DNA from: Bacteroidota bacterium
Lineage (GTDB): Bacteria; Bacteroidota; Ignavibacteria; Ignavibacteriales; Melioribacteraceae
Assembly (NCBI GenBank): GCA_018829205.1
Contig: JAHJUE010000011.1
Location: forward strand, 62,001 to 126,000
DNA: 64,000 bases
Direction of reading: 5' to 3'
The notes below the pieces were generated by a model. The model was not told the origin of the DNA. It was given only the letters and a program-made list of their open reading frames with translations, and did no database searches. The position numbers were made by a program, and so were the translations under genes. This document shows, piece by piece, positions 2,602 to 57,163 of the stretch; position 1 is the first letter of the stretch, and every line of letters starts with the position of its first letter.

Positions 2602-2602
2602 A

Positions 2603-9920: not shown

Positions 9921-9971
9921 TTAAATACCTAATTAATATCGTCACTTAATAAATTGTTAAATTTGTTTCTT

Positions 9972-19631: not shown

Positions 19632-20531
19632 CTATTTAAAGTTATACATTAGCGAAATTGTGTGAGAACTGCCTAAATCAAAATCATAAGGAGTAAATGC
19701 ATAATCAAAATTTATACTGCTCCAGAATATGCCTAGTCCGGCTGTTAAACCTTTAGTTTCATATCCCGACATATAACCGGCTCTAACGGCAAACATTTTT
19801 TTAAATAAAAATTCTGCGCCGAGATGTATATGTGAATTGTCCGACGCGGTATATTTCTGTAATCCGCCTGTAACCGTAATATCCGATTCAAGATTATTAA
19901 CGGCAAAACTATACGCAGCGCCGATTCTGAGATCTACAGGCAGTTCTGTTTTTTCGTGAAGCAGTTCATTCATAGAGCCTATATTTCTTAATGAAGCGCC
20001 TATATTTAATCCTTCAATTACGTTTTTATAATTCGCGCCGAAATCAAATCCCCAGCCGTTTGCTTCCGCGAGGAACAAATTCTCATTCAAATATTTTGCA
20101 GTTACACCTAGTGATAAATTTTCTGTTATATCAAAACCGGAAGAAAGACTAACATAAAAATAATTTATATTAAATGATGATTGAGCTTCGCCGGGCTGAG
20201 TTCTTATTTCAATATCTGAGATTGTTGTTGTGTTTATACCTAAAGCGAAAGGCAGATTAAATAGTGAAAAACTTGCCCCGAACAATTCGCTTCTAGAATC
20301 TTGGATTAACTCATTGTGTGTAAACAATAATTGAGATTTAGTGAATCCGGAAATTAAAGCCGGATTATAATTTAACGCTGTTACATCATTTGCCGTAGCA
20401 ACGCCTAAATCGCCCATTGCAATATTTCTTGCGCCGAATCCGAGTTTTAAAAATGCCAGTCCGGAATTACCTGCTGTTTGAGCCGTTAAAATTGAAGAAG
20501 ATATTAAAACAATAAAGAATAATTTTTTCAT
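19632..20531 (-). CDS. PorV/PorQ-family outer-membrane beta-barrel protein
   Basis: Signal peptide (about 17 residues, ending LTAQ) followed by GNSGLAFLKLGFGARNIAMGDLGVATANDVTALNYNPALIS, the signature opening of PorV/PorQ proteins of the FadL-like barrel superfamily. The rest is alternating beta strands ending in a strand with terminal aromatic-like SLMYNFK, consistent with barrel assembly. PorV acts as a shuttle in T9SS cargo maturation in other Bacteroidota. Here it lies directly after a second PorV-like gene and a T9SS cargo gene, which supports a related role. At 299 aa it is shorter than classical PorV. Confidence 0.82.
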   Translation of the reverse strand: MKKLFFIVLISSSILTAQTAGNSGLAFLKLGFGARNIAMGDLGVATANDVTALNYNPALISGFTKSQLLFTHNELIQDSRSELFGASFSLFNLPFALGINTTTISDIEIRTQPGEAQSSFNINYFYVSLSSGFDITENLSLGVTAKYLNENLFLAEANGWGFDFGANYKNVIEGLNIGASLRNIGSMNELLHEKTELPVDLRIGAAYSFAVNNLESDITVTGGLQKYTASDNSHIHLGAEFLFKKMFAVRAGYMSGYETKGLTAGLGIFWSSINFDYAFTPYDFDLGSSHTISLMYNFK

Positions 20532-20540
20532 AAGTAATTT

Positions 20541-21578
20541 CTAGAAATTTATGTTTACGCCAATTATATGCTGATCGCTTGATGAATATGGTTCAATTAC
20601 AAATGCATAATCAACACCGATAATCATATTATTTAGTTTATAAAAATACGAAAATCCCAATGAAGGTCTAACAGGAAAATCGGGATTCTGCAGATTCCAT
20701 TTATCCAATCCGCCTCTTAAAAATAGACTTTCAACTATATTATATTCAACTCCAAATCTAAGATATGAAGTTTCTGCGCTGCTGCTTTCAAATTCTACGG
20801 CTGCAATTATATTGGGTTCATCAAATTTATACGCAATTCCAATTTTTTTCAGTAATGGGAATTTATCTTCGCTAGCTTTACCGTTAGTTCCGTAAATTTC
20901 TGAAGTGTCCCATTTATATTTTGTATTTAAGTCGGTTAGTACCGCCGAAATAGTAATATTATCGTTCAGCGAATAAAGGGCGCCAATATCAAATCCTAAT
21001 GAAGTTGACGTAACATCTTCATAAAGCTTATAGTAATAAAATTTGAAAGCTATTCCTATCGCAAGTTTACCCGAGAAGCGGTTTGACACGCTGAAGAAAA
21101 ACTGGTTTTCTGAAGTGCTTAAATTCCCTGTCTGCTCTCCTGATCCGTCATATTGCGGAATATCACTTACACCGGCGTTTATTATTCCCGCGCTGAAACC
21201 TGCAATGGAGCGCGGTTCGTTTTCACCTTTTTCATTTTGCTTTGTGCCGAACGGAAAAGTTTTAGTATAATTCAGAAAATTTAATGATCTATCAAGTGAT
21301 AAAAATGAATAAGAAGTTTGGAAATTATTTTTATTCTGAAACGCGCTAAGTGCCGGATTATAATATGAAACTACATTCCCGTATTTAACCGCGGACATTG
21401 AATTACCCATACCCATGCCTCTTGCTCCGAATCCCATACGGCTGAATGCACCGGGCAAACTTGCTATGTCGCTAGTCTGCGCCTGACCGAAAGTTAATTG
21501 TGTGAATAATAAAATTACAAATACTAGATAAGATTTACTCAGAGTATATTTTGCAATACCGTTAAAATCCCATAACAT
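20541..21578 (-). CDS. PorV/PorQ-family protein, second copy
   Basis: Contains SLPGAFSRMGFGARGMGMGNSMSAVKYGNVVSYYNPALSAFQNKN, the PorV/PorQ opening, then barrel-like strands. The frame stays open to 21695, but that upstream part is made of a palindromic repeat found at two other places in the window, so I start at the ATG at 21576-21578. This gives an N-region of about 17 residues and a hydrophobic signal segment (YLVFVILLFTQLTFGQA). An ATG at 21588-21590 is also possible. It differs clearly from its downstream paralogue, so this is not a recent duplication. Confidence 0.75.
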   Translation of the reverse strand: MLWDFNGIAKYTLSKSYLVFVILLFTQLTFGQAQTSDIASLPGAFSRMGFGARGMGMGNSMSAVKYGNVVSYYNPALSAFQNKNNFQTSYSFLSLDRSLNFLNYTKTFPFGTKQNEKGENEPRSIAGFSAGIINAGVSDIPQYDGSGEQTGNLSTSENQFFFSVSNRFSGKLAIGIAFKFYYYKLYEDVTSTSLGFDIGALYSLNDNITISAVLTDLNTKYKWDTSEIYGTNGKASEDKFPLLKKIGIAYKFDEPNIIAAVEFESSSAETSYLRFGVEYNIVESLFLRGGLDKWNLQNPDFPVRPSLGFSYFYKLNNMIIGVDYAFVIEPYSSSDQHIIGVNINF

Positions 21579-21590
21579 CAAAAATTCCAT

Positions 21591-21670
21591 CCTAGTGTCT
21601 TTGTGTCTTTGTGGCTTCTCTTTAAATTTTATTTGTGCTTTAATTGCCGCAAAGGCACTAAGGCACGAAG
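21591..21670. repeat. Imperfect palindromic intergenic repeat, copy 1
   Basis: The left arm (21591-21615, CTAGTGTCTTTGTGTCTTTGTGGC core) and the right arm (21646-21670) are reverse complements with about seven mismatches over 25 bases, around a 30-base A/T-rich spacer. Related copies are at 36060-36127 and 58823-58880. This copy separates the T9SS cargo gene from the PorV-like gene and extends that gene's reading frame artificially. Confidence 0.8.
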
Positions 21671-21733
21671 AAGTTTTATTATACATTTTTTCCATATCAA
21701 TTTTTCGTTAATGAATTATAAGTTTCTATAATT

Positions 21734-23305
21734 TTAATTTAATATCATAATTTTTCCAAAGAGCGGATCGTTATTTCCTATGTCAATTCTATAGAAATAA
21801 ACTCCGTTGGGCACAACTTTTCCTTTTTCGTTTCTGCCGTCCCAGAATTCAAAATATTCATCAAAAGCGGAAGTACGCGGAGCATTCTGCAAAAGTGTTT
21901 TTACAAGGTTCATCCCGAAATCAAAAATTCTAATTGAAATTTCCGCGTCCGTATTATTTGTACTGAATTGAATTTTTATTTTTTCCTGCGAAGGTGAAAA
22001 AGGGTTTGGAAAAGCTTTGGTTGAAGAAGGGTCTGTTAGTTTCTCTGAGGCTAAGAATACTTTCCATAAACCATCCCATGCCGAAGCGCCCTGTTGTTCC
22101 GTTATTCTCCCCATACCATTACTATTTGATCCTACCCAAATATTATTTTCGGATTCACCTTCTTGAATTTCAATGGAGCGAAAGTTATTCGAAGCAAGTT
22201 TTACTTTTGTAATACTATCAAATATTTGAGGAGCGGTTAACCATAATATCCCGTCATTGTAACTTCTATAAACTCCTTCTTCAGATGCTACAATTACCTG
22301 GGATGGTCCATCGCCGTAACTTATAAAATCAAATTCGTGAGCTCTAAAACCTGGTAGAAATACTTCCCAATTATTTCCGCCATTAGTTGTCCGACTTACC
22401 GCCCAATATTCTGTTTGTCCTTCAGCTTTCCATGTTGTAGCCCACAAAGATTTATCAAACTCGTTGTAGTTCATCTCAATTATATGATTGCCGCTGATCG
22501 AGTTTGCTTGGTTGGTGTGATTAAACTTCACCCATGAAATACCACCATCATCGGATTTATTAATTCCGCCTGCAGTTCCTGCAAAAATCACCCCATCATT
22601 CGTTATTTCAAGAGAATAAGCGATATAATTTAGGTGGTGTTCAGGTTCGTTTTTCCTTTTAGGCTGCATTCTAAAATTTAGTGTGTCAGTTGGTTTAATA
22701 GAATCCAGATAATCCGGCGGAACAACAACTCTCTGCCATGTTTGACCCATGTTTGAAGACTTGCGGAATCCACCTGCATGATCAGCAATAAAAATTGTGT
22801 TGTTTAGGAAGTCAATATCTCTAATAAGATTATCCCCTGCTTTAGTCTCGGCTTCAGCATATAGTATATTATTACCATAAGTGACTAAAGTATCACCAGG
22901 TTCATCAAGCGGTTGAGGAACTATAGTCCAAGTTTCACCGTTATCCAGAGAATATCTTAACCCCGAACCTTCAAAAGCACCTTCAACGTCTTTCGATAAA
23001 TGCCATGTGGAGGCCCAAATTGCGCCATTATTATATGCGACAGTTGCTACGCTCTCAGTACCGAATGCTTCTGTGTTATAATAATTTGTCCATGTTACGC
23101 CGTTATCTAATGACCGACTCAACCCTTCACCTGTCGCAAGCCATATAGTATCTCCAATAGCTAATATATCTTCAATAGTGTTACCCGCTGGAGTTTCGTC
23201 ATTAGTTTTTTTTAATGTACTACCGCCTAACTCATAACCTTTCGGCATTGTTTGAGCACAAACAGCACTTGTAAATACTATGATTGCAATAATTACTTTT
23301 TTCAT
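21734..23305 (-). CDS. Secreted BNR/beta-propeller-like protein with T9SS type A sorting domain
   Basis: Signal peptide (about 17 residues ending VCAQ). The body has repeated motifs such as SLDNGVTWTNYY, SLDNGETWTIV, SNMGQTWQRV, SDDGGISWVKF and TNGGNNWEVF, which are Asp-box/BNR repeats as in sialidase-like propellers. The C-terminal 95 residues begin FPNPFSPSQEKIKIQFS and end GVYFYRIDIGNNDPLFGKIMILN, a type IX secretion sorting domain (FlgD-like Ig fold). No catalytic sialidase residues can be assigned, so I do not call an enzyme. It overlaps the upstream lipoprotein gene by 4 bases (ATGA). Confidence 0.85.
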   Translation of the reverse strand: MKKVIIAIIVFTSAVCAQTMPKGYELGGSTLKKTNDETPAGNTIEDILAIGDTIWLATGEGLSRSLDNGVTWTNYYNTEAFGTESVATVAYNNGAIWASTWHLSKDVEGAFEGSGLRYSLDNGETWTIVPQPLDEPGDTLVTYGNNILYAEAETKAGDNLIRDIDFLNNTIFIADHAGGFRKSSNMGQTWQRVVVPPDYLDSIKPTDTLNFRMQPKRKNEPEHHLNYIAYSLEITNDGVIFAGTAGGINKSDDGGISWVKFNHTNQANSISGNHIIEMNYNEFDKSLWATTWKAEGQTEYWAVSRTTNGGNNWEVFLPGFRAHEFDFISYGDGPSQVIVASEEGVYRSYNDGILWLTAPQIFDSITKVKLASNNFRSIEIQEGESENNIWVGSNSNGMGRITEQQGASAWDGLWKVFLASEKLTDPSSTKAFPNPFSPSQEKIKIQFSTNNTDAEISIRIFDFGMNLVKTLLQNAPRTSAFDEYFEFWDGRNEKGKVVPNGVYFYRIDIGNNDPLFGKIMILN

Positions 23306-24120
23306 TCTTGAACTAAAATTATTTGAGAAATTTCATTACTTAAAAGGCCGCCTTTATCTTCGGCACGGAATACAAAAGTCCATTCGCCCAATTGTGCAGC
23401 TTCACTTGATGAGCCGTCGGAAAAAGAATTTTTAAACGAATAAATTCCGTCTCCGGCTGTCTCATCACCCAAATTAATATCTCCGTTATCAACCATTAAA
23501 ATTGTACCGGAGCTTGTATTATCGGGGCGCGTAAATTGAAAGTAAACTTGACTAATATCTGCCAGAGTATTTTCGTCAGTTACTTTAATTGTAAAAATAA
23601 AATCTACACCTCTTTTAATTGAATCCGGCATAACCAAATCGGAAATAACAGGCGCAATTTTATTCTGCCCGTTATCAAATTCTAATTGATGGAAACCGAC
23701 AACCCTAATATTATCATCTTCATTGTTTACATTATCTTTTACATAAAACTGAAGCAAATATTTTCCGCTTGGTATTGATTTTCCGAGATATGTTTTACCG
23801 GAGTATATGCCGTCACCTGCTTCTTCATCTCCATAGTTGGCTTTATTACCGTCGTCAAACATTGCAACATTGTTTATTACCGTTTCAGAAGCGTTTGGTG
23901 TTATAACATTATACCATACTTGTGAAATTACATCAGAATTATCAATTTTGATTGAAGCAACTAGCGAAGAATCAGTTTCTTGAAAAACTATATACTCCGG
24001 CGCTGTAATATCTGAAACTCTGTATTCCGAATTCGGTGAATTTACAATATCATCCGTTAATCCGTCGCACGAATAAAAAACAATCGTTAATAAAATTAAT
24101 AATATCTTAAAATTTTTCAT
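23302..24120 (-). CDS. Surface lipoprotein with two tandem beta-sandwich-like repeats
   Basis: A short signal peptide ends in a lipobox (IVFYSC), so Cys18 is probably lipidated. Two similar segments follow, each with an aspartate/glycine-rich calcium-like pattern: MFDDGNKANYGDEEAGDGIYS near residue 95-115 and MVDNGDINLGDETAGDGIYS near 210-230. These resemble bacterial Ig-like or choice-of-anchor-type domains. I recognise no enzymatic motif. It is the first gene of the unit leading to the T9SS cargo and PorV-like genes, so the products probably meet at the outer membrane. Confidence 0.7.
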   Translation of the reverse strand: MKNFKILLILLTIVFYSCDGLTDDIVNSPNSEYRVSDITAPEYIVFQETDSSLVASIKIDNSDVISQVWYNVITPNASETVINNVAMFDDGNKANYGDEEAGDGIYSGKTYLGKSIPSGKYLLQFYVKDNVNNEDDNIRVVGFHQLEFDNGQNKIAPVISDLVMPDSIKRGVDFIFTIKVTDENTLADISQVYFQFTRPDNTSSGTILMVDNGDINLGDETAGDGIYSFKNSFSDGSSSEAAQLGEWTFVFRAEDKGGLLSNEISQIILVQE

Positions 24121-24422: not shown

Positions 24423-25430
24423 TTAGTTAATTGTAACTAAAAAAGGTGTTGGTGAAAATGATACTACTAAAATAAAAATGCTTATGTAACCCAATATCAT
24501 TCTTTTAGTATCAAGAATATAATAATCGCGGACAGGCGGATGTTTTATTTTTATAACAAACAATAAAATAATAGCCCAAAAAAGCCAGCCGATCCATCCA
24601 ATTCCTAAATCAAGTTCCAAAAAGTTATCTATTACGCCAATAAAACCTAAAATTCCCAATACTATCATACTAATACTTGCAATTGCTTCATGTTTTTTTG
24701 AACCGAACATGCTGTAAACTATATGTCCGCCGTCAAGCTGACCGACAGGCACCATATTCATTGCAGTAACAAACAAACCAAACCAGCCGACACACAAATA
24801 AGGATAATGATAAATTTCAGACATTGGAGGAATAAACTGTCCTGGTTCTGTAAGAATATTTCTTAGGAAAGAAAATAAAATAGTGTCGCCGAAGGCAAGA
24901 CTGACTCCTTGTATACCGTATTCAGGAGAAAAGTAATCGGGATGAATTGCCAAAATATAATCTTCACCCGGCAGATTGAGGAAACCGTAAATTATTAAAA
25001 TTAAACAAGCAATAAATCCGGCTAAAGGACCTGCGATTCCAATATCAAACATTGCTTTGTTATTAAGTACGGGGGATTTTGTTTTAATTACAGCTCCCAT
25101 CGTACCGAAATTAAAAAATCCCGGGAGCGGAGGAAACGGAATATAATAAGGAAGCGTTGCTTTTACCTTATGATATTTTGCCGCGAAGTAATGACCGAAT
25201 TCATGCGAAGAAAGCATGAATAAAACCGATACCGCATACGGCAAACCGCTTACAAGATCTGTAAATGTATATGGTCCTATTGAACCTGTTGTCCAGCTGA
25301 TTCCCGCAATAAGCGTTGTAATAAAGGTTACAACAAATAAAAAAATGTGCACAGGAAGAGATGTTAAAAAACTATACTTTTTTAAGATAACACCAAATTT
25401 ACTAGCTAACTTTTCTTGATTTTCAGGCAT
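24423..25430 (-). CDS. Site-2 protease family protein (M50 membrane metalloprotease)
   Basis: Intramembrane zinc protease. HEFGH (near residue 77) supplies two zinc ligands and the catalytic Glu. The second motif NMVPVGQLDGGH (near residue 232) supplies the third ligand. About seven hydrophobic segments surround these. No PDZ domain is visible, so it belongs to a minimal, RseP-unlike group. It is the last gene of the eight-gene minus-strand operon, one base after the DUF1207-like gene. The substrate is unknown; association with a lipid/glycan operon may be only transcriptional. Confidence 0.88.
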   Translation of the reverse strand: MPENQEKLASKFGVILKKYSFLTSLPVHIFLFVVTFITTLIAGISWTTGSIGPYTFTDLVSGLPYAVSVLFMLSSHEFGHYFAAKYHKVKATLPYYIPFPPLPGFFNFGTMGAVIKTKSPVLNNKAMFDIGIAGPLAGFIACLILIIYGFLNLPGEDYILAIHPDYFSPEYGIQGVSLAFGDTILFSFLRNILTEPGQFIPPMSEIYHYPYLCVGWFGLFVTAMNMVPVGQLDGGHIVYSMFGSKKHEAIASISMIVLGILGFIGVIDNFLELDLGIGWIGWLFWAIILLFVIKIKHPPVRDYYILDTKRMILGYISIFILVVSFSPTPFLVTIN

Positions 25431-25431
25431 A

Positions 25432-26262
25432 TTATAAATCTAAATTAATTCCGATTGCCGAATATTCTTTATTAAAATCAAAGTATTCGCCGTGAATACT
25501 TTTACCGGAGTAGTAAGCGTAATATAAACTTAATCCCCTTCCTTCTTTTTTCCCTAATTTAATCCCAATATTTATCGAATTATTAATCGAGTATTTATCC
25601 AGATGAATAACTTTTAAATCATATGCAAAATAGGGATTCAAATTTTCACCTAAAATATCATCAATAAAATATTCTGCTCCAACTTGATAATTATCTTTTT
25701 TAATACTTGAAGGATCAACGTGATAAAGATAAGCCGCGCCGGCGTAAATCCTTAGGTTATTAATTTTATAATATGCTATAAGCTCTAAAAATTCTCTGCT
25801 GTAAACTCTTGGTAATTGCCCGTCACGCCACTGCTGGTTTGAACCGTCATAATGACCGTCGACAAAATGAGCGCTTATGTGACTTAATCTTAATCGAGCG
25901 CCGATTTCTTTAACTTCATTTATTTTATTTTTATAACCGAAATTTACGCCGAATAAATAGTCAACCGCATCAACCGGAAAATGGAAATCTGTTTCACCTC
26001 TTAAAAGAGTGTATGTGAATAAGTCGGCCCCAAATGACCATATTTCATTTTCACATTTATGATATTTAATAATATCCGCCGAGCTGCCTATATCAAGTCT
26101 CAATTCATTATCACCAAGCTGAAATAAACTTCCTAATCTAGGTTCTAATATATTAGCCGTAAACGGCTGTATATTTAAATCACCCGGGAATAATTCAATT
26201 TTATCTTGAGCGTTAATTTCTGAAAGGCTTGCAAAAAAAAGAACAAATAAAATTTTCTTCAT
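25432..26262 (-). CDS. DUF1207-like outer-membrane-associated protein
   Basis: A signal peptide of 18 residues (ending INAQ) is followed by FPGDLNIQPFTANILEPRLGSLFQLG, then GADLFTYTLLRGETDFHFPVDAVDYLFGVNFGYK and RLRLSHISAHFVDGHY. This order matches my memory of the DUF1207 family, which has no established function. Alternating strands up to the C-terminus suggest a beta-barrel-like protein. It sits 2 bases from the radical SAM gene and 1 base from the protease gene in the operon. Confidence 0.65.
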   Translation of the reverse strand: MKKILFVLFFASLSEINAQDKIELFPGDLNIQPFTANILEPRLGSLFQLGDNELRLDIGSSADIIKYHKCENEIWSFGADLFTYTLLRGETDFHFPVDAVDYLFGVNFGYKNKINEVKEIGARLRLSHISAHFVDGHYDGSNQQWRDGQLPRVYSREFLELIAYYKINNLRIYAGAAYLYHVDPSSIKKDNYQVGAEYFIDDILGENLNPYFAYDLKVIHLDKYSINNSINIGIKLGKKEGRGLSLYYAYYSGKSIHGEYFDFNKEYSAIGINLDL

Positions 26263-26264
26263 TA

Positions 26265-27263
26265 TTATAAACTGCCTGTATTGTTGGTATATGATTTTTT
26301 TAGAATTTTTTGTTTAATTAATTTGTTATAACCGTACTTAAATTTCGACGTTAAACTCACAAGCCCGTATAAATTTGTCGGGAACGCGAATGAAGGCTCA
26401 AAATAACAATTAACGGTGCAGCCGCTGCAGAAATCAAATTTCCCCTCATTCTTTTTATAATACTGCAACTCTTCGGAATTTCTTATTTCTTTAATCGGCC
26501 TGTCAATAGGTATACTTTTATTTTCAAAATGATAACACGGCAAAACAATTTCGTTATAAGGTGAAATTACGACAACCCGTGAAACAGCTTTGCACAAAGG
26601 GTCATTAATATTGTTGCCGCCGGCTCTTCTCAATTTCAAGTATGCTTTATTCAAATAGATGTTCATTTTACCGTTTACATATTCTTCAATAAAATTAATG
26701 GCTTCTTCACTTAAACCGGGATTACCGAAATAAGAAAACACAGGGTTTACAATTAAAACAAGATTAAGTTTCTCTGCAATTTCATGCATACGAGGAAGTT
26801 TTTTATAAGTTTCATTTGTTACGGTAAATAGAATATCAGGAAATTCACCCAACGATTTAGCGATATTAATACTTTCGAATACATGATTAAAACAATTTAC
26901 CTTACGAATTTTATTGTGTTCATCTTCATCCGGCGAGTCAAGAGAAAAATGAAGAAGGTTTACCTTGCCGGCTAAACTCTCTGCAAATTTGGGATAAAGC
27001 AAGGCATTACTTGTAATACTTGTCTGCATTTTTTTACTTTTCGCAAATGCGGCCATCTCCGCAATTGTTTTATTAAGAAGCGGTTCACCGCCTGTTAAAT
27101 CAATAAACTTTACTCCGAGTTCGGCAAGCTGTGATACGTTTGATTTAAAATCTTCAAGTTTTGCTTCGGGTGTTCCTTTAAACTTACCGTGATCGGCAAA
27201 ATGGCAGAACTCGCAAAAGGCATTGCATCTATATGTTACATAATAATTGCACAGCAGAAGCAT
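26265..27263 (-). CDS. Radical SAM protein with C-terminal cysteine cluster
   Basis: The [4Fe-4S]/SAM motif CNAFCEFC lies at about residues 14-21, followed by FIDLTGGEPLLNKT (SAM-binding GGE), TSITSNALL and LLHFSLDSPDEDEHNKIR. The C-terminal third has further cysteines (DPLCKAV, LPCYHF, DFCSGCTVNCYFEP), as in SPASM/twitch-type auxiliary cluster domains. The frame extends to 27284, but the ATG at 27261-27263 overlaps the GT2 stop codon (TAATG) and is preceded by GGAAGGGAAGAG, so I use it. The reaction is unknown; the operon context of GT2 enzymes and a deacetylase suggests a carbohydrate or lipid substrate. Confidence 0.82.
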   Translation of the reverse strand: MLLLCNYYVTYRCNAFCEFCHFADHGKFKGTPEAKLEDFKSNVSQLAELGVKFIDLTGGEPLLNKTIAEMAAFAKSKKMQTSITSNALLYPKFAESLAGKVNLLHFSLDSPDEDEHNKIRKVNCFNHVFESINIAKSLGEFPDILFTVTNETYKKLPRMHEIAEKLNLVLIVNPVFSYFGNPGLSEEAINFIEEYVNGKMNIYLNKAYLKLRRAGGNNINDPLCKAVSRVVVISPYNEIVLPCYHFENKSIPIDRPIKEIRNSEELQYYKKNEGKFDFCSGCTVNCYFEPSFAFPTNLYGLVSLTSKFKYGYNKLIKQKILKKSYTNNTGSL

Positions 27264-28354
27264 TAATATTCTCTTCCCTTCCATGAAACTTTTTTATTAA
27301 AAAGAACAATAAACGGTAAAACGAAAACGTAAATTACAAAATAGATTTCAAATACAAGAAAATGTTTTAGATTTAATTTCATTTTTAGTTTTCTATAAAC
27401 CGGATTTAAAAAATAATAATCGGTCGCAATTTTAAATAATAGAATATAAAAGGACTCTGTCGATAAGAAAAACGGGATTAACAATATTCCTGCATTTGAA
27501 ATCCACCCCAAAGTCATAACCGTAAATCCGGCTAATTCACTTTGCAATCCACCGACTCCCCATCTTTTCTTTTGATTATATAATGATTTAATATTTTTGC
27601 ATGGTTTTGATTTTACAAGCATGCCTGGGTCGGTTGGATGTATAATTTTGTATTTTCCCAGTTTATGAATAGCCATAAGCAGAGCAAAATCTTCGGTAAC
27701 CGAAAACTTAAGCGATTGATAGCCGCCGACTTCATTGTAAACAGATTTTCTGTAAGACATGTTGTTGCCGATACAGCTCATAGGTTTATCCAGATTCATT
27801 ACACCGCCAGCTACCGAAAGCAGATAAATAAAATCGACCGACTGCATACCTTCAAACGAATTTCTTTCAAACTGGGAAGTATGACCGCTTACCATAGCGA
27901 CATCATTTGAAAAATATGAAACGACTGTTTTAACCCACTGTGGATTGGGCAGACAATCAGCGTCTGTAGTTAATATTATTTCACCTTTGGATATTTTGAC
28001 GGCTTGATCAATAGCGTTTGCTTTGCCTTTTAAATGACCTTCACCTTTATTCGGAATGATTGTTACGAATTTTGGTTTGTCTTTTATATATGAAGCTATG
28101 ATATTTCTGGTTTCATCTTCTGACTCATCATTTACAATTATTATTTCAATTCTATCCTCAGGATATTCGAGTTTATCCAAAGCCGTCATACAATTAAGAA
28201 TATTATCTTCTTCGTTTCTTGCCGAAACTATTACCGATATAAAAGGCAAATCTTTTACCGGCAATTTTTCTAATGATTTATTTAACCCAATAGTAAATAT
28301 TACTGTTTGAATAAAATATAATGAAACCGCGGCAAGGAATATTATTTCAAACAT
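27263..28354 (-). CDS. Membrane glycosyltransferase, family 2 (processive-type motifs)
   Basis: An N-terminal membrane segment precedes a GT-A domain with ISVIVSARNEEDNILNC, VNDESEDET (first Asp), TTDADCLPNPQW (DAD metal site), SVTEDFALL (catalytic ED) and NQKKRWGVGG (QxxRW). Two or more C-terminal membrane helices follow. These motifs are those of NodC/PgaC/hyaluronan-synthase-like enzymes, though HpnI-type transferases to lipids share the layout. It overlaps the deacetylase gene by 13 bases upstream and the radical SAM gene by one base downstream. Donor and acceptor are unknown; UDP-GlcNAc is plausible given the deacetylase. Confidence 0.85.
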   Translation of the reverse strand: MFEIIFLAAVSLYFIQTVIFTIGLNKSLEKLPVKDLPFISVIVSARNEEDNILNCMTALDKLEYPEDRIEIIIVNDESEDETRNIIASYIKDKPKFVTIIPNKGEGHLKGKANAIDQAVKISKGEIILTTDADCLPNPQWVKTVVSYFSNDVAMVSGHTSQFERNSFEGMQSVDFIYLLSVAGGVMNLDKPMSCIGNNMSYRKSVYNEVGGYQSLKFSVTEDFALLMAIHKLGKYKIIHPTDPGMLVKSKPCKNIKSLYNQKKRWGVGGLQSELAGFTVMTLGWISNAGILLIPFFLSTESFYILLFKIATDYYFLNPVYRKLKMKLNLKHFLVFEIYFVIYVFVLPFIVLFNKKVSWKGREY

Positions 28355-28977
28355 TCTTCCGGTTCTCCGAATTCAAATCCTTTTATATATGCTTCCTCAA
28401 CTATAATTTTAATTGAATCAGTAATAATACTTTTAGATTTAAGGCTGTCGTGTAAAACAACAATTGAGTTTTTTCTTAAGTATTTTTTCACTGCATTTTT
28501 AACTATCTGCGGATCATTTTTATAATCATAAGTTAATAGAGACCACATCACGTTTTTCAATTTAGATTCTTTAATTAAATTTCCAGTTTTGAGATTAAAT
28601 CTGCCGTGAGGCGGCCGGAAATAAAGTGGAATAAAACCCGGAATATCTCCGGCAATTCCGTTGAACATTTCTATCTCTTTTTTTGCATCAGATTCCGAAA
28701 GCTTTGTTATTACTTTATGATTATATGTATGATTAGCCATTAAATGGCCGTTAGTCAATATATCTTTGGCCAGCTGCCGATTTAAACTGATGTTATTTCC
28801 GACACAAAAGAACGCCGCTTTCAAATTTTGATTATTCAACTCATTTAATATCAGTTCCGTAGTACCCGGGTTTGGTCCGTCGTCGAAAGTTAATAATATT
28901 TTATTATTGGAAGTTTCCCATATAAAATCATTAAATATCTTCTTCATAATCAAAGGAGGATTGTACAAATAGCGCAT
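28342..28977 (-). CDS. Polysaccharide deacetylase (NodB homology domain)
   Basis: CE4 deacetylase of about 211 aa. Motifs in order: LTFDDGPNPGT (metal and base Asp), NHTYNH (metal His pair), RPPHGRF and VVLHDS. All catalytic residues appear intact. There is no signal peptide or membrane anchor, so a cytoplasmic action on a lipid-linked or nucleotide-linked amino sugar is possible. I use the ATG at 28975-28977, which overlaps the preceding GT2 stop (TGATG); the frame itself is open to 29004. Flanked by two GT2 genes, it likely removes an N-acetyl group from their product. Confidence 0.88.
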   Translation of the reverse strand: MRYLYNPPLIMKKIFNDFIWETSNNKILLTFDDGPNPGTTELILNELNNQNLKAAFFCVGNNISLNRQLAKDILTNGHLMANHTYNHKVITKLSESDAKKEIEMFNGIAGDIPGFIPLYFRPPHGRFNLKTGNLIKESKLKNVMWSLLTYDYKNDPQIVKNAVKKYLRKNSIVVLHDSLKSKSIITDSIKIIVEEAYIKGFEFGEPEECLK

Positions 28978-30104
28978 CAGCGTTCGAGCTCCCGTTCTTT
29001 CCATCTAAAATTTCCGAACAGCCCCATTAATCCCGACAATATTATATAAGGAATCTGCATAATTTCAGCTAATAAAAAAACATTATTAATAGATTTGTCG
29101 AACAATAAACTGATCCCTTTTTTAAGCACAAAATATTCAGAAGTAATTTTTACAAGCATAGTAAATAATAGTGTATATAAAAATATTTCGTTATAAAATA
29201 CTCCTAACAATATTTGCGCAATAATGGAAAGGTAAAATAAAAATATTAGAATCAATTTTATTATTAACAATTTATTTTTATAATATAAGCCTTTACTGGC
29301 CCAGCGTTTTCTTTGATTTAGAAATTCCTTTAATGAACTCATAGGAGCAGTTTTAACTACAGCCTTTCTATTCATGCAGAATTTTATATCATAATTAGTT
29401 TTTGAAGCTATCTTCTGCATTAATAATTCATCTTCGCCGGAAGATAAATTCATCAAGTCATCATAACCACCAACTTCATAAAATATATGTTTTCTGAAAG
29501 CCGAGTTTGCGCCGTTGCAGATTATTGGGGTTTTATTCCCTATAAGTCCGGCGCCAGTGATAATAAGTCCGGCAAATTCTAATTTTTGCAGTTTCCCGAA
29601 TAACGAATCGGAATTATAGAACTCTACCGGACCTGACACAAATGCAGTGTTGCCGCTAAAAGATGAAACAATTGATTTGAGCCATTCTTTACCATGTGTG
29701 CAATCCGCGTCTGTTGTGATAATTATTTCGCCTTTCGCATTTTCTATCCCGAATTTTACAGCAGCTTTTTTATGTCCTCTTTTGCCTTCGAAATTATTGA
29801 GGCTAAGTAAATGTACGTTTGCAGTTAGGATATTTTCATTCAGCAAATCAATCGATCTATCGCTGGAGCCATCATCAACAAAAATAATTTCATACTTGTT
29901 TTTATCATATTCCTGTTCTTCAATACTTTTAAGACATTTAATTATATTTTTCTCTTCATTTCTAAAGGGAATAATAACTGAAACAAATTTATCAACTATA
30001 TTTTCCTTGTTGGATATTTTATTGAGTCCCCGGTAAACGGAAAAAATAAAATATGAATAATGCAACATCAGCAGAATAAAGAAAACAATTAATAAATCAA
30101 TCAT
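28977..30104 (-). CDS. Membrane glycosyltransferase, family 2 (second copy)
   Basis: Same layout as the other GT2 in this operon: N-terminal helix, FVSVIIPFRNEEKNIIKCL, VDDGSSDRS, TTDADCTHGKEW, SSGEDELLM, NQRKRWASKG (QxxRW), then several C-terminal helices. The two proteins are homologous but well diverged. Its start overlaps the end of the LPG-synthase-TM-like gene by 8 bases and its stop overlaps the deacetylase start by one base. The presence of two such enzymes around a deacetylase suggests either a disaccharide or two successive transfers onto a lipid. Confidence 0.85.
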   Translation of the reverse strand: MIDLLIVFFILLMLHYSYFIFSVYRGLNKISNKENIVDKFVSVIIPFRNEEKNIIKCLKSIEEQEYDKNKYEIIFVDDGSSDRSIDLLNENILTANVHLLSLNNFEGKRGHKKAAVKFGIENAKGEIIITTDADCTHGKEWLKSIVSSFSGNTAFVSGPVEFYNSDSLFGKLQKLEFAGLIITGAGLIGNKTPIICNGANSAFRKHIFYEVGGYDDLMNLSSGEDELLMQKIASKTNYDIKFCMNRKAVVKTAPMSSLKEFLNQRKRWASKGLYYKNKLLIIKLILIFLFYLSIIAQILLGVFYNEIFLYTLLFTMLVKITSEYFVLKKGISLLFDKSINNVFLLAEIMQIPYIILSGLMGLFGNFRWKERELER

Positions 30105-31089
30105 ACTTTTTTGTAATTATTAGAAATAGTCCAACAATTGAAGGTAAAACCAGATTAATAAAAAATAATATTATAGCTGCGTTGAAACCCGCTGCGGCGG
30201 ATAATCCGACCAAGTTCATAAAAAATACCGTTGAACCTTCCCGGATACCCAATTCTGCTATTGTAACTTGAGGTATAATAGTCTGAGAGAATATGACAAG
30301 ATTACTTATCCATAAATAATTTAATAAATCGTATTGATGTAAAAATGCCGCAATCAGTAATGCCATTTGAGTTGTAAACGTTAAATAGTACAGAAATGTT
30401 ATAAAGGTCAGCTGCCATGTAATTTTTGATGATAGTTTTCCAAGCAGTTTAAATTTGGAAACATGATTTTTCAAGAATCTTATTTGTGATATTTTATCAA
30501 AAATAATATCGTTCCAAAATTTTTTATTGTTCACAATAATAAACAAGAAATAGAACAATATTATATAAATTATTAAAAGCGAAACAGTGATTAATATATT
30601 TACGGCATGAAAATAATGAACAAAAAGCAGAGCTGATAAACCACCTATAAAACTCACTACAATTAATGGGAAAAGTTTATCAATAAAAGTAGCAAGCGAT
30701 ATTTCAATTATCCCTACTGTTTTTATAGGAATTGCACGAGCAACAAATTCGCCGATTTTAAATGGCGTTACAATTCCTCCGCTGAACCCAATAAAAAGCG
30801 ATTTGGCAATTATTCCTTTATCAAATATGTTCAATGAATGGCGGCATATTATCTCCCATTTTTTGTATTGAAGAAATACATTTACACCGGTTAATAATAG
30901 AGCAGATAGAACAAAGATATAGTTTGCGGATCCAAGTGTTTCTATAATTTTTTTATAATCAATTATATTTATTAAATAAACTAATAATGAAGCAGTAATA
31001 ATTATTTTCAGCAAATTAAAAAATAATTTTTTATTTGCGAATCTTTTGCCTGTATTTAACTCAAATGCTTCCAAAATGTTATTCTTCAA
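30097..31089 (-). CDS. Lysylphosphatidylglycerol-synthase transmembrane-domain-like protein (HpnL/AglD-type)
   Basis: Integral membrane protein with about eight helices. LLSALLLTGVNVFLQYKKWEIICR and FIGFSGGIVTPFKIGEFVARA are hallmarks of the LPG-synthase TM (flippase-like) superfamily, as is TIAELGIREGSTVFFM in the second half. It lacks the cytoplasmic acyltransferase-like domain of MprF. Relatives include HpnL of hopanoid clusters and archaeal AglD. It may move or present a lipid-linked intermediate. The first codon appears to be TTG at 31087-31089, overlapping the radical SAM gene by 11 bases; another TTG lies five codons on. Confidence 0.8.
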   Translation of the reverse strand: MKNNILEAFELNTGKRFANKKLFFNLLKIIITASLLVYLINIIDYKKIIETLGSANYIFVLSALLLTGVNVFLQYKKWEIICRHSLNIFDKGIIAKSLFIGFSGGIVTPFKIGEFVARAIPIKTVGIIEISLATFIDKLFPLIVVSFIGGLSALLFVHYFHAVNILITVSLLIIYIILFYFLFIIVNNKKFWNDIIFDKISQIRFLKNHVSKFKLLGKLSSKITWQLTFITFLYYLTFTTQMALLIAAFLHQYDLLNYLWISNLVIFSQTIIPQVTIAELGIREGSTVFFMNLVGLSAAAGFNAAIILFFINLVLPSIVGLFLIITKKYD

Positions 31090-32089
31090 CTATATTTATT
31101 TTTAGTCCTTCGGTACAGTTAGTGCACATATCGATAGCTTTCCTGTTATTTAAAACCGCTCTTCTGAAATTATTATACTTCCCGCTTTGCCAAATCTCTG
31201 AAAAAGATTTACCATCTAAAACTCCGATTTCATATTTTGCATCTTTATCAAAACAACAAGGAACAATTTTACCGTCCCAGGTTACCACCGAAGTACGCCA
31301 CAATGCAAAACAATGGTTCCGTAATTCAGCCTTCATTTCAACTTTACCGTTTTCAATTGTATATCTTCTGTATTTTTCATCAGCCGGTAAAAACTTCAAA
31401 GCGTTTTCATAAGAAGAAACCTGCATTGTCTTTAGAACAACTTTATCAACTCCGACTTCTTTTCCATACTGAAATACTTTTTCAATTTGGTTTTCGTTCT
31501 GCTTCATAACAATAAACTGAAACTCAACAAATGGCTTTTTATATTTTCGCTCCTTTTTCATTTTCATAAACAAGCGTAGGCACGCGTCAGCTTCTTTGAA
31601 CGTACCTCCTACTCTATAATTCTGATATGAGTTCTCATCTAATCCGTCAATTGAAAATATTAATTTATCAGGAGAGTTATTTAATATTACATCTATTTTT
31701 TTCTCAGTAATTAATAAACCGTTTGTACTAATCGAAACATATATGTTTTTGGACTGAGCGTATTTTATCATCTCAGGAAGTTCTTTATTAATAAATGGTT
31801 CCCCTTGAAAAAATAATTGAATATAAAAACAATGCCCGTAAATTTGATCAATAACTTCCTTGAATTTTTCAAATTTCAAAAGTCCAAGCGGACGGGTCAA
31901 AGCACCTAACCCCGACGGGCATTCAGGGCATTCTAGGTTACAATGGTTTGTAGGTTCTATTGAAATAGTCAGCGGTTTCCCCCATACAACCGGCTTTCTA
32001 ATTAATCTAGAAATTTGAAATGAAGTAATTATTTTAAAAAGATTAATTATTCTTTCGATTGTGAAATACTTTAGATAATTTATTTCCAC
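31079..32089 (-). CDS. Radical SAM/SPASM domain protein
   Basis: Radical SAM core with CNLECPEC (residues 49-56 region), then FFQGEPFINKEL and VSISTNGLL and LIFSIDGLDENSYQNYRVGG. The SPASM C-terminus carries NHCFALW, GKIVPCCFDKD and DMCTNC, giving the ligands for an auxiliary Fe-S cluster. The start is a GTG at 32087-32089 with GAAAGAAG upstream. It is the first gene of the eight-gene operon and diverges from the B12 radical SAM gene at 32277. SPASM proteins often modify peptides, but no precursor peptide gene is apparent here, and related proteins occur in lipid and sugar clusters. Confidence 0.85.
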   Translation of the reverse strand: MEINYLKYFTIERIINLFKIITSFQISRLIRKPVVWGKPLTISIEPTNHCNLECPECPSGLGALTRPLGLLKFEKFKEVIDQIYGHCFYIQLFFQGEPFINKELPEMIKYAQSKNIYVSISTNGLLITEKKIDVILNNSPDKLIFSIDGLDENSYQNYRVGGTFKEADACLRLFMKMKKERKYKKPFVEFQFIVMKQNENQIEKVFQYGKEVGVDKVVLKTMQVSSYENALKFLPADEKYRRYTIENGKVEMKAELRNHCFALWRTSVVTWDGKIVPCCFDKDAKYEIGVLDGKSFSEIWQSGKYNNFRRAVLNNRKAIDMCTNCTEGLKINIVEE

Positions 32090-32276
32090 TGTTCTTCTTT
32101 CTTTTATAGAATAGGTAATTAAAATACAGATATTTTTCAGTCAAATATTACGGTTAATTTAACAATCTATCTGCTAAAATGATAATCAAGAAAATGAGAA
32201 TTCTGCTTCAAAATAGTTAAGTTTATTTTCTCATTTTTTAAAAGTACATTATGTGTTATTAACAATAATTTTTGTA

Positions 32277-33788
32277 ATGAATATACTACTTTTATACCCG
32301 AAAATGACGGACACATTCTGGTCGATGAACCACCTGCTGAAAGTGGTAGGGAAAAAAGGAAGCTACCCTCCGCTCGGTTTGTTAACAGTTGCTTCTTTAC
32401 TTCCAAAAGACTGGAATAAAAAATTAATCGATTTAAATACAGAAAAACTTAATGATGAAGAAATTCATTGGGCTGATTATGTATTTATAAGCGCGATGAA
32501 TGTTCAGTCTGTTTCCGCCCGAGAAGTTATTAAACGATGTAAATCGTGCGGAGTAAATATTGTATGCGGCGGAACTCTTTTTACTCATGAGTATGAATCA
32601 TTTCCGCAAGTAGATCATTTTGTATTGAACGAAGCAGAAATCACTCTTCCGCTTTTTCTGAAAGATCTTGAAAAAAACAATCTTAAAAGAATTTATAAAA
32701 CTGAAATGTTTGCGAATGTTGCTGAGTCCCCGCTGCCGCAATGGGATTTAATTAATATTAAAAATTACGAATACTCAATTGTTCAGTACTCGCGCGGCTG
32801 TCCGTATTTATGCGACTTCTGCGATGTTACCGCATTATTCGGAAGGATTCCGCGTGTAAAATCTCCCGCCCAAATTATTAATGAACTTAATGAAATTTTA
32901 AAAGCCGGCCATTCGGATATGATTTTGTTCGCGGATGATAATTTAATCGGCAACAAAAATGTTTTGAAAAGTGAACTGCTTCCGGCATTAATTGAATGGC
33001 GGTCGCAAAATGAATTCGCTCCCGGTTTTGCAACTCAGGTAACAATTAACCTTGCCGATGATGATGAGCTTATGCGGCTTATGCTTGAAGCGGGATTCAG
33101 ACATATCTTTATAGGCATTGAAACTCCGGAAGAAGAAAGTTTATTAGCGAGCAGAAAAAAACAGAACGCAAAAAGAAAACTTCTTCAAAATATAAAACAC
33201 CTTCAGACATCAGGTTTTATTGTAACCGGCGGTTTTATTGTGGGATTTGATACCGACACGCCTTCGATATTTGATAACCAAATTAAGTTTATTTCCGAAA
33301 GCAATATTGTTATTGCAACAATAAATTTATTAAAAGCTCCGCCTGGGACTGAACTTCATGAACGAATGAAAAAAGAAAACAGGTTAATTGATAAATTTGA
33401 TTTTGATGAGAATATGTCAAACATACGTTTTAAAATAGACAGAGAAATAATAAATGAAGGTTACAAAAGTGTTTTAAATAATGTTTACTCGCCGGAAAAA
33501 GTTTACAAACGCGCTATAAATTTTCTTAAATATTACAACGGCGCTAAAGTTGCTAATCCTATTAAACGGAAAATTAAATTTAGTGATTATATAACTTTAC
33601 TAAGAATTATTATATATGTAGGCATACTCGGGAACTGCCGTATACATTTCTGGAAATTAATTATTTGGACGTTAAAGAAATACCCGGCAAAACTTGATTA
33701 TGCCTTTCTTTTTGTTTTATTGATGTTTCAATTTAATAAAATGTTTGAAAGATACCTGAGCCTAAATCATAAAATTCCGGAAAATTAA
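32277..33788 (+). CDS. B12-binding radical SAM protein (HpnP/DUF4070-type)
   Basis: N-terminal cobalamin-binding-like domain starting MNILLLYPKMTDTFWSMNH and SYPPLGLLTVASLLP, followed by a radical SAM core with CPYLCDFC (near residue 180), LFADDNLIGNK and HIFIGIETPEEESL, and a C-terminal region like DUF4070. This order matches the subfamily containing the hopanoid C-2 methylase HpnP as I remember it, but several unrelated members exist. The classic DxHxxG cobalamin motif is not obvious, as in HpnP. I start at the ATG at 32277 rather than the GTG at 32253. It diverges from the operon that begins with radical SAM/SPASM. Confidence 0.82.
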   Translation: MNILLLYPKMTDTFWSMNHLLKVVGKKGSYPPLGLLTVASLLPKDWNKKLIDLNTEKLNDEEIHWADYVFISAMNVQSVSAREVIKRCKSCGVNIVCGGTLFTHEYESFPQVDHFVLNEAEITLPLFLKDLEKNNLKRIYKTEMFANVAESPLPQWDLINIKNYEYSIVQYSRGCPYLCDFCDVTALFGRIPRVKSPAQIINELNEILKAGHSDMILFADDNLIGNKNVLKSELLPALIEWRSQNEFAPGFATQVTINLADDDELMRLMLEAGFRHIFIGIETPEEESLLASRKKQNAKRKLLQNIKHLQTSGFIVTGGFIVGFDTDTPSIFDNQIKFISESNIVIATINLLKAPPGTELHERMKKENRLIDKFDFDENMSNIRFKIDREIINEGYKSVLNNVYSPEKVYKRAINFLKYYNGAKVANPIKRKIKFSDYITLLRIIIYVGILGNCRIHFWKLIIWTLKKYPAKLDYAFLFVLLMFQFNKMFERYLSLNHKIPEN

Positions 33789-34396: not shown

Positions 34397-36022
34397 ATGT
34401 TTATAAACTTTTCAGACCTGCCCGCGCATCAAAATATATTTTTAGATTATTTATACGAATTTGAAAAAGTAGAAAAATACTTCAATAAAAATTTCCGAGA
34501 TGTTGACGAATACCCCGTTTTTTTAAGTGAGCTTGCAAATTACAACAGACCTCACAGAGATGCCGTAATTAATATTATTAAAAAACAGTATCAAAATTTA
34601 AATGCTTCAAAACAGACAGAGGTTAACCTAGAACTGCTAGCTTCAAAAAAAACATTGGCAGTTGTAACCGGTCAGCAGCTTGGAATTTTCGGCGGACCAA
34701 TGTATACTTTTTATAAAACCATAACCGCTATTAAACTTTGCAGATCACTAAAAGAAAAATTTGAAGGATATAATTTTGTCCCCGTATTCTGGCTTGAAGG
34801 AGACGATCACGATCTTGATGAAGTTAGCAGTCTAAATATCATTGATAAATCAAATGAGCTGAAGGTTCTGAAATACGGAGATGCTCTTGAGGAAGGAACC
34901 AATAAAGGAAGCGTAGGCCATATAAAACTTACCGAAGATATTAGGAAATTCATTAAAGAATTTAATGATGAAACAAGAGATTCCGATTTTAAGGAAGATT
35001 TAATGAATAGACTTAACTCTTCTTATAAAGAAGGTGTTACTTTTAACGCGGCATTTAAAAACCTTATTTTCGATATTTTTGATGAATACGGATTGATAAT
35101 TTTTAATCCCCAAGAGATTGAAATTAAAAGAATTCTAAAAGACATATTTAAAAATGAACTTGAAAACTTCCGCGAGCATACCGATGTTTTAGTTGAAAAA
35201 AGCGCGGAACTTGAGGAAGAATATCATGCTCAAGTTAAAGTAAAACCAATAAATTTATTTGCATCCGAAAAAGACGGAAGATTTTTAATTGAACCTGTCG
35301 ACGAAAATTACAGGCTTAAAGGAAAAAGAAAAACCTTAACAAAAGATGAATTATTTGAATGGCTTGAAAGAGCCCCGGAAGATTTTAGTCCGAATGTACT
35401 TCTACGTCCAATTTGCCAGGACTACCTGCTTCCAACCGCATTTTATATTGCAGGTCCGGGAGAGATAAGTTACTTCGCTCAAGTGACACCGTTATATGGA
35501 TTTTTTAATATCCCGCAGCCTTATATTTATCCAAGAGGATCGGCAACAATTGTTGAAAAGAACATAACAAATGTATTGGAAAAATATAATCTGAAATACA
35601 CAGATTTATTTTTTGATGAAAAGGAATTAATTGAAAAAGTTATAGGTTCTTTATCAGAAGCAAAAATTGACGACGACATTTTAGAAGCTAAAAATTTAAT
35701 TGAAGAAAAAATAATTAAGATTAGAGAAAACTTTCTGCAAATTGATCAAACACTCGGAGACGTAACCGATAAATCTCTTGAAAGAATAAACCAGACTCTG
35801 GACCAATTAATGCAGAAGGCGAAAAAAGCAGAAGAAAGAAATCATGAAACTGCTATAAGACAAGTAACTAAAGCGCGTAATTTATTTTACCCTAATAATA
35901 ATCTTCAAGAACGTGAATTAAATTTCACATATATAGTTAATAAATACGGAATTGAAATGCTGAAATGGATTCTTGAAGAATTGGCTGTAAATAAGTTTGA
36001 ACACCAGATAATTGAATTATAA
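34397..36022 (+). CDS. bshC: Bacillithiol biosynthesis cysteine-adding enzyme BshC
   Basis: Adds cysteine to glucosaminyl-malate in the last step of bacillithiol synthesis. AVVTGQQLGIFGGPMYTFYKTITAIKL (near residues 95-121) and PVFWLEGDDHDLDEV (near 133-147) are the nucleotide-binding-like signatures of BshC. A long coiled-coil insertion lies in the C-terminal third, as usual. Length 541 aa is normal. The ATG at 34397 has a clear GAGGGG at the right distance. BshA and BshB genes are not in the window. A cysteine-synthase-like gene lies about 8 kb downstream, but there is no operon link. Confidence 0.93.
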   Translation: MFINFSDLPAHQNIFLDYLYEFEKVEKYFNKNFRDVDEYPVFLSELANYNRPHRDAVINIIKKQYQNLNASKQTEVNLELLASKKTLAVVTGQQLGIFGGPMYTFYKTITAIKLCRSLKEKFEGYNFVPVFWLEGDDHDLDEVSSLNIIDKSNELKVLKYGDALEEGTNKGSVGHIKLTEDIRKFIKEFNDETRDSDFKEDLMNRLNSSYKEGVTFNAAFKNLIFDIFDEYGLIIFNPQEIEIKRILKDIFKNELENFREHTDVLVEKSAELEEEYHAQVKVKPINLFASEKDGRFLIEPVDENYRLKGKRKTLTKDELFEWLERAPEDFSPNVLLRPICQDYLLPTAFYIAGPGEISYFAQVTPLYGFFNIPQPYIYPRGSATIVEKNITNVLEKYNLKYTDLFFDEKELIEKVIGSLSEAKIDDDILEAKNLIEEKIIKIRENFLQIDQTLGDVTDKSLERINQTLDQLMQKAKKAEERNHETAIRQVTKARNLFYPNNNLQERELNFTYIVNKYGIEMLKWILEELAVNKFEHQIIEL

Positions 36023-56970: not shown

Positions 56971-57163
56971 TTAAATAATTTTAATTATAAATTCCGGTTC
57001 TTAATGAAAACTTAATAACATTTATTCTGTTCCTTTTTTTACTTTTATATTTTCCTGCCAAAAACAATAATATTAATAATTTCATCAATGCTAATTTATA
57101 TTGATAGATTTTTCTTGCTCGCAATTTTTAATTAACTTTACTCATCACAATTTTACATATCCA

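Follow-up and report, generated by a model that had tools for sequence, protein, structure and literature searches.

A conserved block of radical SAM, glycosyltransferase and deacetylase genes in Ignavibacteria: a candidate glycolipid pathway that parallels the hopanoid side-chain route

The window analysed here is a stretch of 64,000 nucleotides from a bacterium of the Melioribacteraceae (Bacteroidota; Ignavibacteria; Ignavibacteriales); the genome comprises 4.59 Mb, and the window is on its contig 4. At positions 24423-32089 it carries a block of eight open reading frames (ORFs) on the minus strand, all of them recovered here and lettered A to H. They include two radical S-adenosylmethionine (SAM) enzymes, two glycosyltransferases of family 2 (GT2) and a deacetylase of carbohydrate esterase family 4 (CE4), as follows.

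A: 31079-32089, minus strand, radical SAM/SPASM protein of 336 residues with a GTG start (PF04055 and PF13186)
B: 30097-31089, minus strand, flippase-like (LPG_synthase_TM) membrane protein of 330 residues with a TTG start and several hydrophobic segments (PF03706, 58.3 bits)
C: 28977-30104, minus strand, membrane GT2 glycosyltransferase (PF00535, also PF13506; motifs DAD, ED and QRKRW)
D: 28342-29004, minus strand, CE4 (NodB) deacetylase (PF01522, 87.9 bits; probable start at 28977)
E: 27263-28354, minus strand, membrane GT2 glycosyltransferase (PF00535, also PF13506; motifs DAD, ED and QKKRW)
F: 26265-27284, minus strand, radical SAM protein with a Cys-rich C-terminal domain (PF04055, 77.6 bits)
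G: 25432-26262, minus strand, DUF1207 protein (PF06727, 44.1 bits) with, by eye, a signal-peptide-like N-terminus
H: 24423-25430, minus strand, M50 metalloprotease-like membrane protein (PF02163)

By their coordinates, successive genes overlap by 11 bp (A/B), 8 bp (B/C), 28 bp (C/D), 13 bp (D/E) and 22 bp (E/F) or are separated by 2 bp (F-G) and 1 bp (G-H), and intergenic spaces of 163 and 302 bp flank the whole block. Every named domain scores above its Pfam cut-off. A preliminary description had reported eight tightly coupled minus-strand genes, two GT2s with their full motifs and a deacetylase with all CE4 motifs; the ORF coordinates, the Pfam matches and the complete GT2, CE4 and radical SAM motifs bear it out on each of these points.

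Both A and F are members of the radical SAM superfamily, having the CxxxCxxC motif (C50xxxC54xxC57 in A, C20xxxC24xxC27 in F) and PF04055 scores of 57.8 and 77.6 bits, respectively, against a cut-off of 29.5. A also belongs to the SPASM subfamily (PF13186, 59.8 bits; cut-off 21.5), in which Pfam does not place F, PF13186 being unmatched at E ≤ 0.01. Eight cysteines of F (C20, C24, C27, C231, C250, C286, C289 and C293) are invariant in 52 sequences and, because five of them lie outside the CxxxCxxC motif, their conservation suggests a single auxiliary cluster. The structure of F predicted from the 52 sequences (predicted local distance difference test, pLDDT, 88.8; predicted template modelling score, pTM, 0.88) finds its best solved fold in the cytosylglucuronate decarboxylase BlsE (Z 24.5, 3.5 Å over 290 residues, 20% identity), followed by SuiB (Z 23.2), SkfB (22.0), MoaA (21.8) and viperin (21.0). 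Since several radical SAM folds match, the fold leaves the reaction of F unfixed, and families missing from the structure-alignment lists of F and E were not counted as excluded. BlsE, described in PMC3715490 as a radical SAM decarboxylase acting on a sugar acid, is also the best sequence match of F in the PDB (E 4.4e-13). Among solved structures it is nearest to F, but identity is low, F misses the cut-off of the BlsE-like decarboxylase model by a wide margin (TIGR04466, 54.5 bits against 400) and a nucleoside substrate is not expected for F. No B12-binding domain is matched in F by Pfam, and A falls below the cut-offs of all its 25 best NCBIfam models.

The two glycosyltransferases score 97.2 (C) and 95.1 bits (E) against PF00535, contain the DxD, ED and QxxRW motifs of GT2 enzymes and carry C-terminal hydrophobic segments. 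In E these motifs are invariant across 52 sequences. The predicted structure of E (pLDDT 94.1) is closest to hyaluronan synthase (Z 29.5, 344 residues), to the archaeal mannosyltransferase PcManGT (Z 27.8 over 311 residues) and to BcsA (Z up to 24.8), the alignments spanning 311-345 residues.

D is a CE4 (NodB) deacetylase by both domain (PF01522, 87.9 bits; cut-off 23.1) and motifs, having TFDD, HTYNH, RPPHG and HD. Residues D41, D42, H92, H96, R130, W154, D160 and H185 are invariant in eight diverse orthologs. The true start of D is probably its second ATG, at 28977, as the conservation of its N-terminus suggests; this ATG shares the sequence TGATG with the stop codon of C, which it overlaps. 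No hydrophobic segment is present, so D should act in the cytoplasm, unlike the secreted deacetylases of poly-N-acetylglucosamine (PNAG) or peptidoglycan.

Within the order we searched 116 relatives, the window's own genome included, and found F in 54, E in 112, H in 109, D in 87 and C in 85. A has any match at E ≤ 1e-25 in 38 and an ortholog in 31, of which 28 are F-positive; orthologs were defined by E below 1e-80, a limit chosen after a gap down to 1e-41 had been seen and which dropped 7 of the 38 genomes. Three genomes have A without F (G057, G103 and G112), the last of them also lacking a match to H and matching a GT2 only distantly. Loci were read in 40 of the 54 F-positive and 20 of the 62 F-negative genomes, together with 17 separate C loci. 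Among the F-positive loci, E-F is kept in all 40 and D-E-F in 39, the remaining one being at a contig end; G follows F in 39 of them and 38 have H. B is part of 18 of these loci, C of 17 and A of 5. The retained adjacency of D-E-F-G exceeds chance.

The 20 F-negative loci, which were chosen by H, all contain E, G and H and none contains F; B, C and D are found in 8. G and H can therefore not be regarded as partners specific to F, and the preliminary description was right to leave them unexplained by its pathway. Wherever F is present it is inserted between E and G; together with two downstream genes (23302-24120 and 21734-23305), E, G and H make up a neighbourhood that is conserved throughout the order whether F is there or not. 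A to H as a single unit was accordingly rejected, given the retention of G and H in F-negative genomes. The block consists of three modules in related genomes: A-B-C, D-E-F and G-H.

Of the 116 genomes, 84 have C as well as D, 28 have neither and 4 are discordant; the presence sets for such gene-pair counts were compiled by hand, and the D count includes genome G073, whose matches lie away from the locus. In one family of the order (f3; families are numbered with f) C is often at a separate place from D-E-F. The 17 separate C loci, from 15 f3 and two f1 genomes, have A-B-C in a row in 11 cases, B-C in five and C alone in one; unlinked as they are in these genomes, C and D still co-occur. B adjoins C in f1/f2, f3 and f21 loci. 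Upstream genes were read in three f3 loci; there the E-F half lies behind genes that look by eye like archease and RtcB, with D between that side and E-F in two and missing in one.

F is accompanied by D in 52 of its 54 genomes within the order, G073 being counted through distant copies elsewhere only. Of the two others, G047 has its locus at a contig end and G033 has a partial E. On a tree of H, the minimum number of changes is seven for F, four each for D and C and nine for A; for this test the C of G072, which is divergent and stands at the locus, was set present by hand, G047 was given no states, and H was absent from two of the 60 loci. The Fisher values for gene pairs within the order are inflated through common descent.

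Outside the order we drew on 395 genomes of the phylum, the F and D profile scans being taken to cover the same genomes. Strong F matches are present in 33; weak ones in G273, G303, G357 and G390 were not counted. In f21, a family of another class, B-C-D-E-F stands in the same order in all four F-positive genomes, with F 49-52% and the other proteins 22-35% identical. Conservation of gene order, set beforehand as the refuting test, therefore holds in both the 40 loci within the order and f21. In the remaining 15 F-positive genomes outside the order F does not adjoin these genes. By DNA identity, several F-positive genomes are metagenome-assembled genomes (MAGs) of Chlorobiales, Thermochlorobacteriaceae and Chloroherpetonaceae (100%), others being near Hymenobacter (75-87%) and relatives of Spirosoma (76-80%).

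Outside the order, 16 of 19 F-positive genomes were read for D, and 15 of these have D profile matches. A C- or E-type GT2 stands beside D in 14 of the 15, compared with five of 16 F-negative D loci (Fisher p 0.0006; by family 8/9 versus 4/12, p 0.02, kinship being ignored). The 16 F-negative loci were hand-picked from 121 genomes to spread over families, four F-positive loci fetched twice were counted once, and the family tallies were compiled by hand. Across the whole phylum set, 32 of the 33 F-positive genomes have a D-profile match, as do 121 of the 362 F-negative ones; G073 and G191, both counted among the 32, have no proper D. With D this common in F-negative genomes, it is a CE4 beside GT2s, rather than a CE4 alone, that marks the F-positive ones. 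A strictly nested distribution, in which F would imply D and D would imply E, was considered; it fits most genomes and fails in G120, G191 and G073. F tracks E more strictly than it tracks D.

The set of enzymes had been likened to the genes for hopanoid side chains. Products of that route are bacteriohopanetetrol N-acetylglucosamine, bacteriohopanetetrol glucosamine and bacteriohopanetetrol cyclitol ether. As given in PMC12583986, HpnI transfers N-acetylglucosamine, HpnK deacetylates it and the radical SAM enzyme HpnJ forms the cyclitol ether, and partial HpnI-HpnK-HpnJ sets also occur. The likeness of logic stands: a GT2, a deacetylase and a radical SAM enzyme share one cluster, and partial sets occur in both. 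Kinship does not. A check with hidden Markov models of the hopanoid families leaves the block proteins far below the Hpn cut-offs: HpnI requires 310 bits (E 47.7, C 32.4) and HpnH 225.05 (A 51.1, F 40.0), while HpnJ (cut-off 577.6) is not among the 25 best NCBIfam models for A or F. Unlike HpnK, D is a CE4 enzyme, and the HpnK family is not among its eight NCBIfam matches at E ≤ 0.01, all of which are of polysaccharide-deacetylase type.

The block further differs from HpnI-HpnK-HpnJ in that F has no B12-binding match and no squalene-hopene cyclase was found. The cyclase model (TIGR01507) matches none of the 116 genomes, the window's own included, at E ≤ 1e-20; in a control of 14 genomes only Bacillus subtilis was matched, below the cut-off, so that sensitivity to a distant homolog was seen with no match over the cut-off. 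With the cyclase missing from the 116 genomes and all Hpn cut-offs missed, membership of the hopanoid pathway was rejected, and a hopanoid product seems very unlikely. As judged from sequence, the block is a work-alike of the hopanoid side-chain route and not a member of it. At 443-3460 on the minus strand the window also encodes HpnE, HpnD and HpnC, each over its NCBIfam cut-off; for this reason squalene is probably made by the window's genome, yet no squalene-hopene cyclase was found in any of the 116.

We propose, with a probability of about 0.5, that B-C-D-E with optional F and A constitute a cytoplasm-facing pathway of glycolipid type, which follows the logic of HpnI-HpnK-HpnJ with enzymes of other families. 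C and E would transfer sugars, at least one of them an N-acetylated amino sugar, onto a membrane acceptor at the cytoplasmic face, and D would remove the acetyl group on the cytoplasmic side. A cytoplasmic D would place deacetylation on the side of the GT2 active sites, as expected from their family, and so before flipping by B. F would then carry out a radical change of the sugar head group, be it decarboxylation, dehydrogenation, epimerisation or a ring change, and A a second one. B would move the product, or help to move it, across the inner membrane. The acceptor is presumed to be a lipid and the sugar an N-acetylhexosamine; the reactions of F and A and the role of B are likewise presumptive, and G, H and the downstream genes would take no specific part. 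The preliminary description had suggested the making or remodelling of an amino-sugar lipid, which we support as probable, its lipid acceptor and product remaining conjectural.

Several observations weigh against this proposal. No acceptor, sugar-nucleotide or lipid gene lies within the block, and polymer synthases are among the solved folds closest to E. The F-positive f24 genomes G120 and G191 have no D-type CE4: G120 has no D match, and the match in G191 starts with a hydrophobic leader. At the E-F locus of G073 D is missing, and the CE4 matches of this genome, which lie elsewhere, are 34-35% identical. Among the best 80 of at least 568 F loci in named genomes F is solitary: in up to 10 kb on either side, 79 of the 80 have no C match, 79 no D match and none A, B or E. 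Finally, pair tests on the H tree cannot reach significance given few independent events, though no pair points the opposite way.

It is unlikely that the genes instead form a route of ArnC/ArnD type, in which undecaprenyl phosphate receives an N-acyl amino sugar from a GT2, a CE4 deacylates the sugar, a flippase moves it and a further enzyme passes it on to lipid A or protein. ArnD is a CE4-like deformylase acting after a GT2, and the likeness extends to the order of the two activities and to the presence of a membrane mover. Such a route is also favoured by four F-negative genomes, three of f30, which we take for Flavobacteriaceae, and one of f55 (loci L269, L270, L271 and L281), in which a D-type CE4 without an adjoining GT2 stands next to a large membrane protein; this we take to be DUF2723, a family resembling polyprenyl-sugar transferases. 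The D-type deacetylase is perhaps put to a different use there. Nevertheless, C and E have QxxRW motifs with C-terminal hydrophobic segments and lie far below the cut-off of the ArnC model (NF007986, 54.2 and 24.5 bits against 529), and E fits the ArnC fold (template modelling, TM, score 0.40-0.42) worse than BcsA, hyaluronan synthase and PcManGT (0.56-0.69). No ArnT-like gene is among the eight, and the radical SAM enzymes are an addition to the Arn scheme.

That F is a general Bacteroidota enzyme with its own substrate, its place beside E and D being inherited or incidental, is distinctly unlikely. The solitary F loci speak for it: the best 80 of at least 568 come mainly from Hymenobacter and relatives and lie beside housekeeping-like genes, their carriers including Hymenobacter, Pontibacter, Rufibacter, Adhaeribacter, Spirosoma, Emticicia, Fulvivirga, Chlorobiales-type MAGs and others, and the single D match beside F among them is weak. 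The genes around solitary F gave no clue to what it does. The f24 genomes with F but no D and the few independent changes on the H tree point the same way. However, E and F adjoin in 40 of 40 loci within the order and in all four f21 genomes, D is GT2-flanked in 14 of 15 F-positive, D-bearing genomes outside the order, and even the two f24 exceptions, G120 and G191, have E, at a separate place from F.

Little credence can be given to a surface polysaccharide or oligosaccharide assembly of known type (PNAG-like or O-antigen) whose sugars are modified by the radical SAM enzymes. PgaC/IcaA is indeed the top NCBIfam match of both C and E, E resembles hyaluronan and cellulose synthases, and a GT2 is paired with a CE4 deacetylase in PgaC/IcaA and NodC/NodB systems as it is here. 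But the PgaC/IcaA cut-off (TIGR03937, 422.3 bits) is far off for E (100.4) and C (92.3), NodC and NodB also being below cut-off, and D has no hydrophobic export segment. No Wzx, Wzy, PgaB, PgaD or NodA model is among the matches listed for the eight genes, and in contrast with these systems the block has two small GT2s of different subfamilies together with radical SAM enzymes. A mycofactocin-like glycosylated cofactor derived from a peptide, or a ribosomally synthesised and post-translationally modified peptide, is hardly credible: C and E match MftF and A resembles SPASM maturases, but the MftF cut-off of 280 (C 68.6, E 62.2 bits) and those of the 25 best A models are missed by far and, the 163 and 302 bp flanks aside, no gap in the block is large enough for a precursor gene.

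A more specific version of the glycolipid pathway is put forward tentatively, as a possibility that may well prove wrong. The product could be an undescribed glycolipid of the Bacteroidota-Chlorobi group, its amino-sugar head remodelled by F after deacetylation and by A in the flippase/GT2 branch, and so a second, unrelated invention of the cyclitol-ether logic, made without hopanoids. Each enzyme comes from a known superfamily; the novelty is in the combination with two radical SAM enzymes. A literature search, with partial coverage of subscription papers, found no description of this cluster and no paper that links radical SAM and glycosyltransferase with polysaccharide deacetylase in Ignavibacteria; on lipids it yielded nothing of use. 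If the proposal is true, the genes behind a modified amino-sugar lipid can be named for a large bacterial group that includes the cultured F carriers Hymenobacter, Pontibacter and Spirosoma; a radical reaction on a sugar lipid is predicted, and a genetic handle on unassigned polar lipids is gained. The case also illustrates how a pathway and its permanent neighbours can be confounded when a single window is read.

Among those neighbours, the DUF1207 family flanks both halves of the block, for a second such gene often heads the B-C half (at 1829-2695 of locus L036, 10622-11539 of L328 and 10442-11332 of L334). The motif RxRxxHxSxHxVDGH is invariant in six aligned DUF1207 proteins, which are possibly outer-membrane enzymes; nothing on DUF1207 was found in the literature. 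The conserved RxRxxHxSxHxVDG is reminiscent of PagL; a PagL-like deacylase was considered, but no solved structure matches the profile and Pfam gives only DUF1207, so this remains a guess.

Beside the block, at 32253-33788 on the plus strand, is a divergent B12-binding radical SAM gene with DUF4070 that scores 55.8 bits on HpnJ; with no tblastn match in 97 related loci, it was rejected as a pathway member. It is followed at 34397-36022 (plus strand) by BshC (493.7 bits; cut-off 265.8), which adjoins the block or the separated A-B-C half in many relatives, lies within the fetched stretch of 12 of the 17 separate C loci and is also near the f21 clusters; these neighbours give no evident link of the block to bacillithiol. 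The neighbour labels RtcB, archease, AccD and endonuclease III were read by eye. On the other side, 19632-24120 (minus strand) encodes two PorV-family proteins, one of them over the cut-off, a protein whose C-terminus weakly matches the PorU type, and a choice-of-anchor X protein. In almost every locus that was read, the genes of the last two keep their linkage with E-G-H. Further away, an ORF at 57101-58819 (plus strand) resembles by eye a DnaQ-type exonuclease fused to a UvrC-like nuclease, and a separate full UvrC-like ORF is found at 9954-11807.

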